Assembly (NCBI RefSeq): GCF_016924655.1
Contig: NZ_JAFFJU010000002.1
Span: 744,001-808,000, forward strand
Direction of reading: 5' to 3'
Length of the DNA stretch: 64,000 bases
From: Sphingomonas arenae
Lineage (GTDB): Bacteria > Pseudomonadota > Alphaproteobacteria > Sphingomonadales > Sphingomonadaceae
The translations under genes and the position numbers were made by a program. Under the pieces are notes generated by a model that worked only from the letters and a program-made list of their open reading frames with translations, did not search any database and was not told where the DNA came from. Each line of letters begins with the position of its first letter. Position 1 is the first letter of the stretch. Positions 19,825-24,565 of the stretch are shown in pieces.

Positions 19825-20334
19825 ATGGACCAGGGCCAAAGCAGCCAGGCAACCGGCACGCGCGACGAAACCTACGACATCATCGCCGTCGTCTATCACG
19901 CGCTCCAAGGCGCTGAAAATTGCCAGACCTACATGCAGGACGCCTCGAGCCGCCAGGAGCTGCGCCAGTTCTTCGAGCGCGCCTGTGACATGCAGCGTCA
20001 GCTCGCCGACGAGGGCAAGCGCCTGCTGCATGATCAGCTGATGCAGGGCGGAAGCTCCGGCGGCGGAAGTGCGTTCAGCCAGTTCGGATCGGGCGGCAGC
20101 GCCGGGATGGGCAGCAGCCAGGGCATGAGCAGCGGCGGCGACCAGTTCGGCTCCAGCGGCGGCAGCATGGGCGGCTCGCAGGACATGAGCAGCCAGGGCA
20201 TGGGCAGCACCGCCGGTCTCGGCCGCGACGTGGGCAACGACCCGCAGTCGGAGCAGTTCGGCCAGAGCCCGTCAGGGCAGGGCCAGCGCCACACGGAGAT
20301 GAACACCGGCGGCGGCGGAACCTCGAGCTTCTGA
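19825..20334 (+). CDS. Small helical protein with Gly/Ser/Met/Gln-rich tail
   Basis: 169 residues. Residues 15-75 (ETYDIIAVVYHALQGAENC onward) form a helical region. Residues 76-169 are low-complexity GGS, MGSS and QG repeats ending TGGGGTSSF. The helical part resembles small ferritin-like or stress proteins in which one helix pair handles redox or oligomerisation, but no metal ligand set can be assigned. AGGAGGAG precedes the ATG. A candidate EcfG promoter lies upstream and a terminator follows. Confidence 0.65.
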   Translation: MDQGQSSQATGTRDETYDIIAVVYHALQGAENCQTYMQDASSRQELRQFFERACDMQRQLADEGKRLLHDQLMQGGSSGGGSAFSQFGSGGSAGMGSSQGMSSGGDQFGSSGGSMGGSQDMSSQGMGSTAGLGRDVGNDPQSEQFGQSPSGQGQRHTEMNTGGGGTSSF

Positions 20335-20384
20335 CGTCGGAATCGACCTCCCCCGCGCGGCGGGGAGGCCAGCCTTACAGGGAA

Positions 20385-20412
20385 GAGCGTCGGGCGACCG
20401 GCGCTCTTTCTT
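20385..20412 (+). terminator. Terminator after the Gly/Ser-rich protein gene
   Basis: GAGCGTCGG/CCGGCGCTC stem (one G-U pair), loop GCGA, then TTTCTTTC. Confidence 0.75.
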
Positions 20413-20598
20413 TCAGTGCCGGGACTGGCTTTCTCGCGCGGCTTCCTGCTCTGCTTCGACCGCCTTCTGGTGGCTTTCGATCGCCGTGTCGATCAGCATG
20501 GCGAGCGAGCGGGTCTGCCGGGTCTTCATCGCCAGTTCGATGCTGTCGCGCTCATGTGTGCGAAAACGCCGCGCGCGATATTGAGGACTGAGTTCCAT
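20413..20598 (-). CDS. Short charged helical protein of unknown function
   Basis: 61 residues from ATG 20598. It is rich in Arg, Glu and Ala, without membrane segments, and ends HQKAVEAEQEAARESQSRH, a likely coiled coil. The ribosome binding site is poor. The candidate EcfG promoter at 20608-20633 would start transcription close to this ATG, so translation may be leaderless, or may begin at an internal ATG (20529). A GTG at 20625 is also possible. No family recognised. Confidence 0.45.
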   Translation of the reverse strand: MELSPQYRARRFRTHERDSIELAMKTRQTRSLAMLIDTAIESHQKAVEAEQEAARESQSRH

Positions 20599-20607
20599 GG
20601 CCCGGTC

Positions 20608-20633
20608 AACGCCCGTGCGGCCCACCCGTTTCC
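20608..20633 (-). promoter_or_regulatory. EcfG-type stress promoter on the minus strand
   Basis: On the minus strand, GGAAAC (20633-20628), a 16-base spacer and CGTT (20611-20608). It has the same form and spacing as the site at 19750, and points at the small 20413-20598 gene. Confidence 0.45.
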
Positions 20634-20664
20634 GCGAAATCGATGTTTCATCAACCCCAAGCGC

Positions 20665-20693
20665 TTGACCTGCCGCAGATTCTTTCGCTTAGT
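20665..20693 (+). promoter_or_regulatory. Promoter of the Trp-attenuated operon
   Basis: TTGACC (20665-20670), a 17-base spacer and CTTAGT (20688-20693). The -10 is weak. The predicted start, seven bases on, is at 20700, exactly the first base of the leader-peptide GTG, implying a leaderless leader ORF. Confidence 0.5.
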
Positions 20694-20699
20694 GGAGCC

Positions 20700-20804
20700 G
20701 TGACGCAGACCGCACTCACCTCCGCCGCATGCGCGACCCCGATCGCAGCCGTGGCCGTGCGCTGGTGGCGTTGGCAGCCCGAGCCCTTCGGCGTGCCTGC
20801 CTAG
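20700..20804 (+). CDS. trpL: Trp leader peptide (attenuation)
   Basis: A 34-residue ORF from GTG to TAG. Trp codons stand at positions 22, 23 and 25 (VRWWRWQP), in a window where Trp is otherwise rare. GGAG is only two bases from the GTG, too close for normal initiation. With the promoter at 20665-20693 the transcript would begin on the GTG itself, as reported for the leaderless trpL of Sinorhizobium meliloti. Just after the Trp codons, GGCAG (20773-20777) can pair with CTGCC (20797-20801) as the pause hairpin. CGGCG (20789-20793) can instead pair with CGCCG (20839-20843) as the antiterminator. Ribosome stalling at the Trp codons would favour the antiterminator. Confidence 0.8.
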   Translation: MTQTALTSAACATPIAAVAVRWWRWQPEPFGVPA

Positions 20805-20834
20805 ACTCGCGTCTTTCGACCCGTGTTTCAGCCA

Positions 20835-20861
20835 AGCCCGCCGGTTCCGGTGGGCTTTTTT
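20835..20861 (+). terminator. Attenuator terminator of the DAHP synthase-trpE-trpG operon
   Basis: AGCCCGCCGG (20835-20844) pairs with CCGGTGGGCT (20847-20856, one G-U), followed by six T residues. Its 5' arm also pairs with the antiterminator segment around 20788-20796, so the two structures exclude each other. Confidence 0.85.
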
Positions 20862-20894
20862 CTTGCCCTCTCCTTTCACGAAAGCAGCCGTCCG

Positions 20895-21908
20895 ATGATC
20901 ATCGTTCTCAGTCCCAACGCCCCCGCGGACAGTGCCGAGCGCCTGCTTGGCCGAATCAAGGACGCCGGCCTGCAACCCTTGCACATGCCTGGGACGGAGC
21001 GTGTTGTCCTCGGCGCGCTCGGTGACGAGCGGATCCTGGCCGAACTCGCGCTCGACAGCGACCCGGACGTGGAGTCCGTCAAGCCGATCCTCGCTCCCTA
21101 CAAGCTCGTCAGCCGGGAGCTTCATCCCCACGATACGGTGGTGGACGTCGGCGGTGTGCCCGTAGGCGGCTCGGCTCTGGCCGTTATCGCCGGCCCGTGC
21201 GCCGTGGAGACGCAGGACCAGCTCTTCGCCAGCGCCAAGGCGGCACAAGATTCCGGCGCCACCATCCTGCGTGCGGGCGCGTACAAGCCGCGCACCAGCC
21301 CCTACGGCTTCTCCGGGCACGGTCCCGCTGGCCTCACGATCCTTCGCGAAGTTGCCGACGACCTCGGCATGCCAGTGGTGACGGAAGTGATGGACACGGC
21401 CGACATCGATGCCGTCGCGGACCACGCCGATGCGCTCCAGATCGGCGCCCGCAACATGCAGAATTTCGCCCTGCTCCGCGCGGTAGGCGCTGCGGGCCGC
21501 CCCGTCCTGCTGAAGCGCGGTCCGGCCGCGAAGATCGAGGAATGGCTGCTCGCCGCCGAATATCTCATGGCCGCCGGTAACGATCAGGTCATCCTCTGCG
21601 AACGCGGCATCCGCACCTTCGAGACTGCGACCCGCAACACGCTCGACCTCAATGCCGTGCCCTATGTGAAGAGCAAGACCCACCTGCCCATCGTCGTCGA
21701 CCCGTCCCATGGCACCGGCATCCGCGACCTGGTCCCGCCGATGGCGCTGGCGGGCGTCGCGTGCGGCGCGGATGGCCTGATGGTCGAGGTTCACTGCAAT
21801 CCGCCCAAGGCGCTCTCGGACGGCGCCCAGTCGCTCTTCCCCGCCCAGTTCGCCGAGCTGATGCGCACCCTGAGACCGGTGGCCGCGGCGGTCGGCCGGA
21901 CGCTCTGA
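20895..21908 (+). CDS. aroF: 3-deoxy-7-phosphoheptulonate (DAHP) synthase, class I beta (Thermotoga-like)
   Basis: 337 residues. An N-terminal ferredoxin/ACT-like segment (1-80) precedes the barrel. Barrel motifs are [46 protein letters not shown] and VDPSHGTG, all of the AroA-I-beta type that resembles KDO8P synthase. It condenses PEP and erythrose-4-phosphate, the first shikimate step. The start sits 33 bases after the attenuator, and its stop overlaps the trpE start (TGATG). Placing this enzyme under a Trp attenuator is notable. Confidence 0.93.
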
Positions 21909-23401
21909 TGCCACTCGCCACCGCCACCCGGCCGGCCGAGGCCCGCGTGCTCCAGCGGCGCCTCGGTGCGCCGATTGATCCGCTCGCGCTCTATGCCGCC
22001 CTTTCCGACCATGGGCGGCGAGCAGACACGGCGTTGTTCGAAGGCAGCGATGGCCTCACCCTGCTAATGGCTCGCGCGGCCGTGCGGGCGGAATGCCGGG
22101 GCGGCACGATCGAGTACACTGCACTGACGGCTAATGGCCACGCCCTGCTGGCAGCGCTGGGTGGGGGCGAGCGGCTGCAACTCCAGTTCGACCCGCCCGG
22201 CACGCTGGACGCCGAAGAGCGACTGCTCGCCCCGGCTCCGCTCCATGCCGTCCGCTCACTGCTTCAGGCGGCGCTTCCACCTGCAGCCGACCCATTCGGC
22301 GTCCTCGCGCTCGGCGTCATCGGCTTCGACCACGCGGGCTTCGGCGAGGACATGCCGCCGCAGCAGCCGAACGCCGCCGGCTTCCCCGACTATCTGTTCT
22401 GGATCCCGGACGAACTCGTGCTGTTCCAGCCCGGTGCCGCGCCCCGCCTGATCTGCACCGCGTTTGGCGGAGAGGAGCGGCACTACCATGACGCCGCCGG
22501 CCGACTGGACCGCCTGCTGACGGCTTCGGCGGACGTGAAGCCGCTTGCGCCACCGTCGCCGCCCGGCCCAGCTCCCGTCATCTCGACCGATCTCGATGAT
22601 CCGGCCTATCGCGCCGTTGTTGAGCGTTGTCAGCAGGCGATCGCCGCCGGCGAAGTCTACCAGATCGTGCCCAGCCGCACCTTCTCCGCGCCCTGCCCGG
22701 ACCCGCTCGCCGCCTACCAGCGTCTCCGCATGGTCGAGACGAACGGCTACCGCTTCTTCGTCGCCGCGCCGGAGACGACCCTGCTCGGTGCCAGTCCCGA
22801 GACCTCCGTCCGCCTGTTCCGCGAAGAGGGCGCGCTCACCGTCGAGGTCAAGCCGATCGCCGGCACTCGCCCGCGCGGCGCAACACCGGACGAAGACGAC
22901 CGGCTGGAGGCCGAGATGCGCCTCGATGCCAAGGAACTGGCCGAACACATGATGCTGGTGGATCTCGCCCGCAACGACGTCGCGCGGATCAGCCTACCGG
23001 GCACCCGGCGAGTGTCCCGGCTCCTCACCGTCGAGCGCTACGCCCGCGTGATGCATCTGGTCTCTTCGGTGACCGGTCGGCTCGCCATCGGGTTCGACGC
23101 CTTCGACGCGCTGGCGGCCTGCCTTAATGTCGGCACGCTGACCGGCGCTCCCAAGGTCCGCGCCATGCAGCTGCTGCGTGAACTCGAGGCCACGGGCCGT
23201 GGCCCTTATGGCGGAGCGATCGGCTGGGTGAACGGCGCGGGCCTGATGGACACGGCCGTTGTGATCCGGTCCGCGCTGGTCCACGAGGGGATTGCGACCG
23301 TCCGTGCGGGAGCGGGCGTGGTTCAGGACAGCCTGCCCCAGGCGGAAGCCGACGAAACCCGCCGCAAGGCCAGTGCCCTCCTGGGAGTCCTGACCCAATG
23401 A
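21908..23401 (+). CDS. trpE: Anthranilate synthase component I
   Basis: 497 residues. The chorismate-binding domain is complete: IPSRTF-like QIVPSRTFSA, FFVAAPETTLLGASPE, VKPIAGTRPRG, DLARNDVARI, GTLTGAPKVRAM and GAIGWVN. It makes anthranilate from chorismate with ammonia supplied by TrpG. The upstream frame is open, but ATG 21908 overlaps the previous stop by one base and gives a normal TrpE N-terminus. It is coupled to trpG by a 4-base overlap. Confidence 0.95.
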   Translation: MPLATATRPAEARVLQRRLGAPIDPLALYAALSDHGRRADTALFEGSDGLTLLMARAAVRAECRGGTIEYTALTANGHALLAALGGGERLQLQFDPPGTLDAEERLLAPAPLHAVRSLLQAALPPAADPFGVLALGVIGFDHAGFGEDMPPQQPNAAGFPDYLFWIPDELVLFQPGAAPRLICTAFGGEERHYHDAAGRLDRLLTASADVKPLAPPSPPGPAPVISTDLDDPAYRAVVERCQQAIAAGEVYQIVPSRTFSAPCPDPLAAYQRLRMVETNGYRFFVAAPETTLLGASPETSVRLFREEGALTVEVKPIAGTRPRGATPDEDDRLEAEMRLDAKELAEHMMLVDLARNDVARISLPGTRRVSRLLTVERYARVMHLVSSVTGRLAIGFDAFDALAACLNVGTLTGAPKVRAMQLLRELEATGRGPYGGAIGWVNGAGLMDTAVVIRSALVHEGIATVRAGAGVVQDSLPQAEADETRRKASALLGVLTQ

Positions 23402-23964
23402 ACCGACCCGTCCTGCTGATCGACAATCTCGACAGCTTCACCTTCAACCTGGTCGAGAGCCTCAAGCGGCTCGGTCATCCCACCCGCGTCGTCCGCAACC
23501 GGATCGGCGCGGGCGAGGCGCTTGCGCAGGCCGAGTCCAACGACGCCGCGATTCTCCTCTCGCCTGGCCCTGGCGGCCCGGAGGAAGCGGGCTGCTGCCT
23601 GGAGCTTATCGCTCGCGCCAAGGGTCGTGTCCCGGTGATCGGTATCTGCCTTGGCCACCAGGCGATCGTGAAGGAAGCCGGCGGCAAGGTCAGCCGTGCC
23701 GACGAGCCGGTGCACGGCAAGACCACCGTCCTGCGCCACGACGGTCATGGACCCTTCGTGGGACTGCCGAACCCCATCGCAGTCGGTCGCTATCACAGCC
23801 TCGCCACCCGCGACCTGCCCGATCGCTTCACGGTCCATGCGCGCGTCGGCGACATGGTCATGGCCTTCAGCGATCCGGTCGCCCGGCAGGCTGGGCTCCA
23901 GTTCCATCCGGAGTCCATTTTGACGACGCACGGCGACGCCATGCTCTGCAACCTGCTGAACTGA
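23398..23964 (+). CDS. trpG: Anthranilate synthase component II (glutamine amidotransferase)
   Basis: 188 residues, a class I amidotransferase. The triad is Cys84 (GICLGHQ), His170 and Glu172 (FHPES). LLSPGPGGP is the oxyanion-loop signature. It hydrolyses glutamine and delivers ammonia to TrpE. Where many relatives have trpD-trpC next, here an unrelated membrane protein follows after 40 bases, so the operon ends at anthranilate. The possibility that the gene also serves as PabA cannot be excluded by sequence. Confidence 0.94.
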   Translation: MNRPVLLIDNLDSFTFNLVESLKRLGHPTRVVRNRIGAGEALAQAESNDAAILLSPGPGGPEEAGCCLELIARAKGRVPVIGICLGHQAIVKEAGGKVSRADEPVHGKTTVLRHDGHGPFVGLPNPIAVGRYHSLATRDLPDRFTVHARVGDMVMAFSDPVARQAGLQFHPESILTTHGDAMLCNLLN

Positions 23965-24004
23965 GCCGGTTGCGAGCGTCCTTCGCCTCGGCCAAGCGAT
24001 TCAC

Positions 24005-24565
24005 ATGACTACCGCGGAAACTCTGTTCGGCTGCGGTTACGGCGCCGCCGCCCTGCTGGCGCTTGCGGCTGCCCGGCGCCGCCGCTCGGACGGCTCACGG
24101 GAGGCCTGGGCGTGGCTGCTAGTCGCGCTTGCGCTCGCGACCTTTGCGCTCCTGCGCTTCACCGCCATTCACGAGGACGCCGTCGCCGCTATCCGCGCGG
24201 TCGCCCGGCAGGACGGCTGGTACGAGCAGCGCAAGCTGCTCCAAGGGGCGCTGCTCGAATTTCTGGTGATCGCGGCCGGCGTGGTGATCGTCCTGTTCGC
24301 GCTCGGCGTCCACTTCCTGCGCCCGGCTATCCTGACGGCGAGCACCGGCGTCGCGCTGCTGGCGATGCTCTCGCTGGCGCGGGCCATGTCGTTCCACCGC
24401 CTGGACTACGTCCTTCAGCGACAGATCGGCCCGCTCAACCTCGCGCAATATGAAGAGCTGGTGCTTCTGCTCTTCACCGGCGGCGCCGCCCTGTTTGCCG
24501 CCACGAAAAAGGGCGCGGCCGATGACGACCGCGCCCCTGAAATCTCGCAAGCCGAAGAGGCTTAG
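24005..24565 (+). CDS. Membrane protein of unknown function
   Basis: 186 residues with four hydrophobic helices (about 8-24, 35-53, 82-102 and 106-124) and a possible fifth near 148-165. A basic cluster ([10 protein letters not shown]) follows the first helix. The C-terminus is charged and overlaps the rplQ stop by 4 bases. The region coding residues about 169-177 doubles as the rplQ terminator on the other strand. No family recognised. Confidence 0.7.
24506..24536 (-). terminator. Terminator of rplQ, embedded in the opposite coding region
   Basis: On the minus strand GGGCGCGG and CCGCGCCC form an 8-bp stem followed by TTTTT. It lies inside the 3' end of the convergent membrane-protein gene. 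Confidence 0.75.

Follow-up and report, generated by a model that had tools for sequence, protein, structure and literature searches.

What controls the aroF-trpE-trpG operon of Sphingomonas arenae, and at which nucleotide does its transcript begin? In the window, as we call the whole 64,000-nucleotide stretch of DNA that was analysed, a DAHP synthase gene stands at the head of an anthranilate synthase operon and is preceded by a short Trp-rich reading frame and a terminator. We assign a probability of roughly 0.9 to the reading that a classical ribosome-mediated Trp transcription attenuator, carried on a leaderless transcript, controls the three genes.

Gene arrangement and the leader reading frame

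The first gene of the operon (20895..21908, forward strand) encodes an aroF-type DAHP synthase of type Ibeta, recognized by PRK08673 (468 bits), PF00793 and PF18152. It is followed on the same strand by trpE (21908..23401), coding for a divergent anthranilate synthase component I, and trpG (23398..23964), coding for the glutamine amidotransferase subunit, both assigned by domain matches. Stop and start codons overlap from gene to gene. With aroF ahead of trpE and then trpG, the original prediction was right in naming DAHP synthase, and not trpE, as the first controlled gene.

The leader peptide frame (20700..20804, forward strand), predicted to be leaderless, runs from a GTG at 20700 to a TAG at 20802-20804 and encodes 34 amino acids, MTQTALTSAACATPIAAVAVRWWRWQPEPFGVPA. 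Its Trp codons, at 20763, 20766 and 20772 in the context R-W-W-R-W, define the putative regulatory segment W W R W (20763..20774, forward strand). The 34-codon GTG frame with its WWRW is present as originally claimed, and a Trp-rich leader is conserved among relatives, as described below.

Conservation of the leader before aroF

Within the window's genus, 35 of 71 genomes have a DAHP synthase of this type (E <= 1e-100), as do 20 of 26 genomes of a second genus. Six close forms (>400 bits) occur in a draw of 298 family genomes, the window's included, and one of these represents a third genus (G044). The total is 56 loci, again counting the window's. A Trp-rich leader frame and a terminator precede aroF at all 55 readable loci; in L138 the sequence ends 114 nt before aroF and shows the terminator only. 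The automatic rule passed over the leader of L165, which was assigned manually. In genome G564, which is included among the 55 readable loci and stands outside the counts over 54, the aroF start is out of frame in the assembly, and a TTGAC lies 36 nt before its second ATG. Because the sequences are related, all counts across loci are non-independent.

The 54 leaders range from 22 to 47 amino acids in length and start with ATG in 53 cases, the window alone having GTG. Each contains two to five Trp codons (three in 33 leaders, four in 17, five in 3 and two in 1). The same leader rule picked out no Trp leader at any of 30 ordinary trpE loci, drawn from 281 family genomes with a match; one of the 30, L285, has a short upstream flank. 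Six of the 30 contain WW in some reading frame that lacks the promoter spacing, and these were not counted as leaders; a terminator directly behind the frame is lacking in five of them, and in L261 there is a weak stem of 5 pairs (-7.2 kcal/mol). Inheritance of the leader from the family's ordinary trpE is disfavoured by its absence, under this rule, from the 30 loci. Among the 80 matches listed from a single scan of genome contigs, no locus carries a sphingomonad name. The rplQ gene is 84 % identical to Sphingomonas parapaucimobilis DNA over 448 bases.

Promoter and predicted leaderless start

A -35 box, TTGACC, occupies positions 20665..20670 of the forward strand, and after a 17-nt spacer a weak -10-like element, CTTAGT (20688..20693, forward strand, identified by eye), is followed by 6 nt and then the GTG. 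Counting about 7 nt from the -10 element, likewise by eye, places the predicted +1 at or next to 20700. A strict sigma-70 promoter scan of 20300-24200 listed no promoter.

The position of the -35 motif was compared across the 54 stretches of up to 420 nt before aroF, which hold 55 occurrences of TTGAC. Forty-four of these precede the leader start by 35-41 nt (43 by 35-39 nt), and the remaining 11 are all downstream of it, such that no TTGAC other than the promoter site occurs upstream in any of the 54. The exact motif is missing from the expected site in 10 of the 54 leaders, and the -10 boxes are weak. The spacing statistic is partly circular, since the rule for choosing start codons rewarded TTGAC spacing, a rule that did not impose the lack of other upstream copies. 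An SD-like motif precedes only four of the 54 leader starts, as against 20 of the 54 aroF starts. Leaderless initiation therefore looks like a conserved design across these leaders, given the 44 of 54 correctly spaced promoter motifs and the lack of competing ones. The predicted spacing at the same 44 loci fits leaderless leaders of the Sinorhizobium meliloti type, in which the 5' end coincides with the leader start codon, and the conserved promoter-to-start distance supports in silico the original placement of the start on the GTG.

It would be unlikely, in our estimation, that the attenuator works as proposed on a longer 5' UTR, with its leader translated from an ordinary site. An operon with the same gene order in Ferrimonas balearica has its leader ATG 75 nt after a TTGACA, with AGG repeats before the ATG (by eye); a leadered form of this operon type thus seems to exist, and the window's own -10 box is weak. 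Against this stand the spacing in 44 of 54 leaders, the lack of any further upstream TTGAC within the sequences covered, the scarcity of SD-like sequences before the leader starts, and an equal TTGAC spacing at all 20 unfused trpD loci (see below).

Terminator, antiterminator and proposed pause helix

An intrinsic terminator stem-loop was found at 20834..20857 of the forward strand, with its T run extending to 20861, by terminator scanning and by folding; it has 10 pairs, a loop of 4 and a T-rich 3' side. Three terminator-like sites were detected in 20300-24200, compared to a shuffle mean of 1.5, and one of the other two overlaps 20834-20857. The RNA that would be free with the ribosome at the stop codon (20815-20862) folds into this terminator, at -18.6 kcal/mol (z -2.5). 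The whole switch region, 20760-20862, has a folding z of -3.04.

Pair changes on both sides of the stem were observed across 74 terminators, 55 of them before aroF and 19 before trpD, a doubtful one (L230) having been dropped. At position -2 the pair is G-C in 46, A-T in 17 and G-T in 11 of the 74, and at position -3 it is A-T in 14, G-C in 16 and G-T in 28; as the pairs were taken from single-sequence folds, paired columns are expected and the evidence lies in the variety of pair types.

The antiterminator was folded from 20776-20845, approximately the RNA left free by a ribosome stalled on the Trp codons. Here 20788-20793 pairs with 20839-20844, accompanied by further short helices, which matches the pairing of 20789-93 with 20839-43 put forward originally; the z value is -1.57, with 16 of 200 shuffles as stable. 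On the basis of folding and pairing tests, the 5' strand of this structure, segment 2 (20788..20800, forward strand), contains GGCGTGCC and would lie under a ribosome that has reached the leader's stop codon. Its partner, segment 3 (20832..20844, forward strand; folding and duplex test), is at once the 3' strand of the antiterminator and the 5' arm of the terminator. The pause helix fared less well. Instead of 20773-77 with 20797-801, folding joins 20773-76 to 20794-97 and 20767-70 to 20798-801, so that the register is displaced, and the resulting hairpin has the stability of shuffled sequence (z 0.01). Two of the three helices, the terminator and the antiterminator but not the pause helix, are thus supported beyond composition. 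In silico, the locus combines a Trp-codon frame before the operon, an intrinsic terminator before the first gene and an antiterminator that shares the terminator's 5' arm.

Antiterminator pairing across 54 leaders

For each leader we computed the probability that the 5' arm of the terminator pairs upstream. The mean over the 54 leaders is 0.78 for a ribosome on the Trp codons, modelled by freeing the RNA beginning 15 nt past the first base of the first Trp codon; it drops to 0.55 when leader codons and spacer are shuffled, and to 0.36 for a ribosome at the stop codon. The real sequence exceeds its shuffled mean in 52 of the 54 and falls below it in two. Individually, 28 of the 54 reach p <= 0.1 against their own shuffles and 19 reach p <= 0.05; the window's leader gives 0.76 versus 0.56 (p 0.07). 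Simpler duplex energies have a mean z of -0.92 and are negative in 46 of the 54 leaders and not negative in eight, the window's value being -0.32.

The geometry of the antiterminator is not uniform across leaders, since the best segment 2 lies just past the stop codon in four (L119, L120, L123 and L124) and at least 20 nt before it in several others. A segment-2 motif, GGCGNGCM, is present in 32 of the 54 leaders and falls in reading frames 0, 1 and 2 in 17, 9 and 6 of them, respectively, with the peptide readings GVPA, RRAG and ARPS differing by frame. With one motif occurring in all three frames, the RNA and not the leader peptide seems to be what selection has acted on, and a peptide function for the leader C-terminus is disfavoured on the same grounds.

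As the evidence for regulation comes from sequence, one might picture a constitutive terminator that happens to follow a chance Trp-containing frame. We regard this as very improbable, in view of a leader and terminator at every readable aroF locus, the clustering of the Trp codons, antiterminator pairing above the shuffled mean in nearly all leaders, and the lack, by rule, of any comparable leader at the ordinary trpE loci. The central claim of the original prediction, a Trp attenuator before DAHP synthase, is accordingly upheld in silico by the leader and terminator (55 of 55 loci) and by the antiterminator (52 of 54).

Under the proposed mechanism, transcription would start on the GTG or a few bases from it at most, and the ribosome would consequently load at the 5' end without a Shine-Dalgarno site. 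When tRNA-Trp is charged, the ribosome would reach the stop codon and cover segment 2 (about 20788-20800); segments 3 and 4 would then pair, and RNA polymerase would halt at about 20861. When it is uncharged, the ribosome would stall at 20763-20774 and leave segment 2 free to pair with segment 3, upon which the polymerase would read through into aroF. The DAHP synthase would in this way be made as a Trp-dedicated isoenzyme, and a second leaderless attenuator, before trpD-trpCF-trpB-trpA, would convey the same signal to the other operon in cis.

A predicted second attenuator and the layout of the trp operons

The genome of the window has a single trpD, located in a trpD-trpCF-trpB-trpA run outside the window. 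This run is preceded by a second predicted leaderless Trp attenuator (L200:7539-7740, within G000:C2:1018000-1034000), assigned by its leader, MTATFSSNAPRSGAHWRWWRPMTSAARWRWR, and its terminator, with a TTGACA 37 nt before the ATG. We read 30 trpD loci, out of 65 genomes of the genus with trpD. Ten of the 30 lack a leader; their trpD lies downstream of aroF-trpE-trpG, according to gene maps of G392 and G435 and to match coordinates for the other eight. At the remaining 20 loci trpD stands apart from trpG, and a Trp leader is present at every one, preceded at 35-39 nt by TTGAC, a spacing that the start rule favoured; nine of these loci are in genomes with aroF-trpE elsewhere or on another contig, and 11 in genomes without aroF-trpE. 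A terminator was picked at all 20, that of L230 being doubtful. In the second-genus genome G053, a single intergenic region (L287:5990-6560) houses both the aroF leader and the trpD leader, which diverge back to back and each have a TTGACG 36 nt before the ATG. The relatives thus have either a fused operon behind one attenuator or split operons with two.

Genomes of the genus without aroF-trpE (e.g., G145, G493, G574 and G569, corresponding to L202, L203, L210 and L221) have kept trpD with its Trp leader, and they showed no TrpE. A search of 24 such genomes for chorismate-binding proteins (E <= 1e-30) yielded one protein in 13 and none in 11. Eleven of the 13 could be compared and are 34.7-39.5 % identical to TrpE, in the chorismate-binding domain only; L238 and L246 gave no match to TrpE and were left out of the comparison, as was the second chorismate-binding protein of the window's own genome, for which a wrong frame had been taken. 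By inference these proteins are PabB-like, and genomes with a trpD leader and no TrpE may depend on anthranilate from outside. In G570 (C1:817905-818875) trpD appears as two overlapping matches, possibly a broken gene. A trpE of the window's type lies near a contig end in G602 (C17:404-1885), a genome with no match to the window-type DAHP synthase; the aroF part was probably cut off by the contig end.

Could the leader RNA also act in trans?

The terminated leader RNA, of about 160 nt, could also work in trans as an sRNA, as suggested originally by analogy with S. meliloti rnTrpL. According to the available portions of PMC7298713 and PMC7143759, rnTrpL starts at the trpL ATG and destabilizes trpDC mRNA; in the former, trpDC is described as a separate operon, attenuation regulating trpE(G) alone among three trp operons. 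Here the trpD operon has its own cis attenuator, with Trp leader and terminator, and a duplex scan of the leader RNA against the starts of trpD, trpCF, trpB and trpA gave ranks of 24, 32, 25 and 63 among 92 background starts, with no preference for these targets. The scan is crude, as folding within each RNA is left out of account and some of the 92 background starts belong to spurious ORFs. Trans regulation of the four genes was rejected on these two grounds, and the analogy with S. meliloti thus goes unsupported; we consider such a role improbable. It would also be unnecessary here, since the split trpD loci carry their own Trp leader and TTGAC spacing. Equally speculative is a scheme in which the two leaderless leaders form a paired system, combining cis attenuation with trans action of their terminated RNAs, whose terminator arms are near-identical, on each other or on other mRNAs; the leader would have been duplicated at the splitting of the operon, leaving each half with the same sensor. 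We give this scheme little weight.

Comparison with known systems

The E. coli trp attenuator has a leader frame with tandem Trp codons and a choice between antiterminator and terminator, and its trpL has an SD site. The window's leader shares the tandem Trp codons and the antiterminator/terminator choice and, as a predicted leaderless frame, would differ from E. coli in the matter of the SD site. No Rfam family reached its gathering score in the window, and L001 and L200 both lacked any match at E <= 1, RF00513 (Trp_leader) included; the window's leader is thus matched by no known Rfam family. As in S. meliloti, in the sections of PMC7298713 available, the leader frame contains Trp codons, is leaderless (with the 5' end at the ATG there, and predicted here) and serves cis attenuation of an operon that holds an anthranilate synthase gene. 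Unlike that system, as presented in the same sections, DAHP synthase rather than trpE(G) comes first, the trpD operon has its own cis attenuator whereas trpDC is controlled in trans in S. meliloti, and the leader peptide has 34 residues compared to 14 (PMC7298713).

Another counterpart is the Ferrimonas balearica operon (L036), in which the order is aroF-trpE-trpG-trpD-trpC, DAHP synthase again comes first, and a Trp leader, MTHRSAQHIAWWWRSQT, and a terminator precede aroF; its AroF is 59 % identical to the window's. This leader (L036:3771-3980, WWW, recognized from the sequence) has an apparently normal 5' UTR. In contrast to the window's, it is predicted to be internal to the transcript and not at the 5' end, and trpD belongs to the same run. 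Its match to RF00513 is weak, at 29.8 bits where the gathering score is 41 bits.

The open-licence literature, covered as titles and abstract openings with Vitreschak 2004 and Merino 2008 outside it, yielded no Trp attenuator before DAHP synthase in this group. The name aroAIbeta, as used in the work cited next, we take to denote DAHP synthase. The general idea is not new, since putative attenuators of clusters including aroAIbeta are tabulated for other phyla in the accessible part of PMC1173090. The mechanism is already known; the arrangement, a DAHP-synthase-first operon with a predicted twin attenuator before trpD, would be a variant of it.

Origin and physiology

In an AroF tree built by a quick method from 46 rows, the 16 family sequences given form a group (support 94), which six others adjoin, among them Ferrimonas, a member of the Kangiellaceae and another gammaproteobacterium; the 22 together have a support of 100. 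These three gammaproteobacteria have aroF-trpE-trpG-trpD-trpC in a single run, and Ferrimonas alone among them shows a clear Trp leader. The window's TrpE is 46 % identical to that of Ferrimonas (498 positions), 34-36 % to those of the other two, and 36-45 % to the 30 ordinary family TrpE proteins over 257-374 positions. Judging from these sequences, the operon was likely exchanged together with its attenuator, in one direction or the other. The leaderless form may be specific to the present lineage, given the distance between TTGACA and the leader ATG in Ferrimonas.

A type II DAHP synthase is present in 26 of the 35 genus genomes with aroF-trpE, the window's included, and in 11 of the 36 without. 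The simplest reading would be a Trp-controlled DAHP synthase isoenzyme beside another, by analogy with E. coli AroH, a DAHP synthase that is inhibited by Trp and controlled by TrpR, as stated in the available part of PMC5343134, where TrpR regulons are placed in gammaproteobacteria. In both organisms one DAHP synthase isoenzyme would be tied to Trp supply; repressor control in E. coli (PMC5343134, same part) differs from the attenuation proposed here. One genome, G534 (C1, a single contig, rated complete), has the Trp-attenuated DAHP synthase and no type II match, which raises the question of how Phe and Tyr are supplied under Trp excess.

Implications

Predicted leaderless amino-acid attenuators now extend past the rhizobial case, and in the present lineage Trp attenuation would have taken over the enzyme at the entry to the aromatic pathway. 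In related genomes the genes form a single operon under one attenuator, or two separate operons with an attenuator each (in one case back to back and divergent), or are reduced to the trpD half; how an RNA sensor is gained and lost as operons split can thus be tested directly. For the coordination of split trp operons, two cis attenuators would provide a simpler alternative to a trans-acting attenuator RNA.
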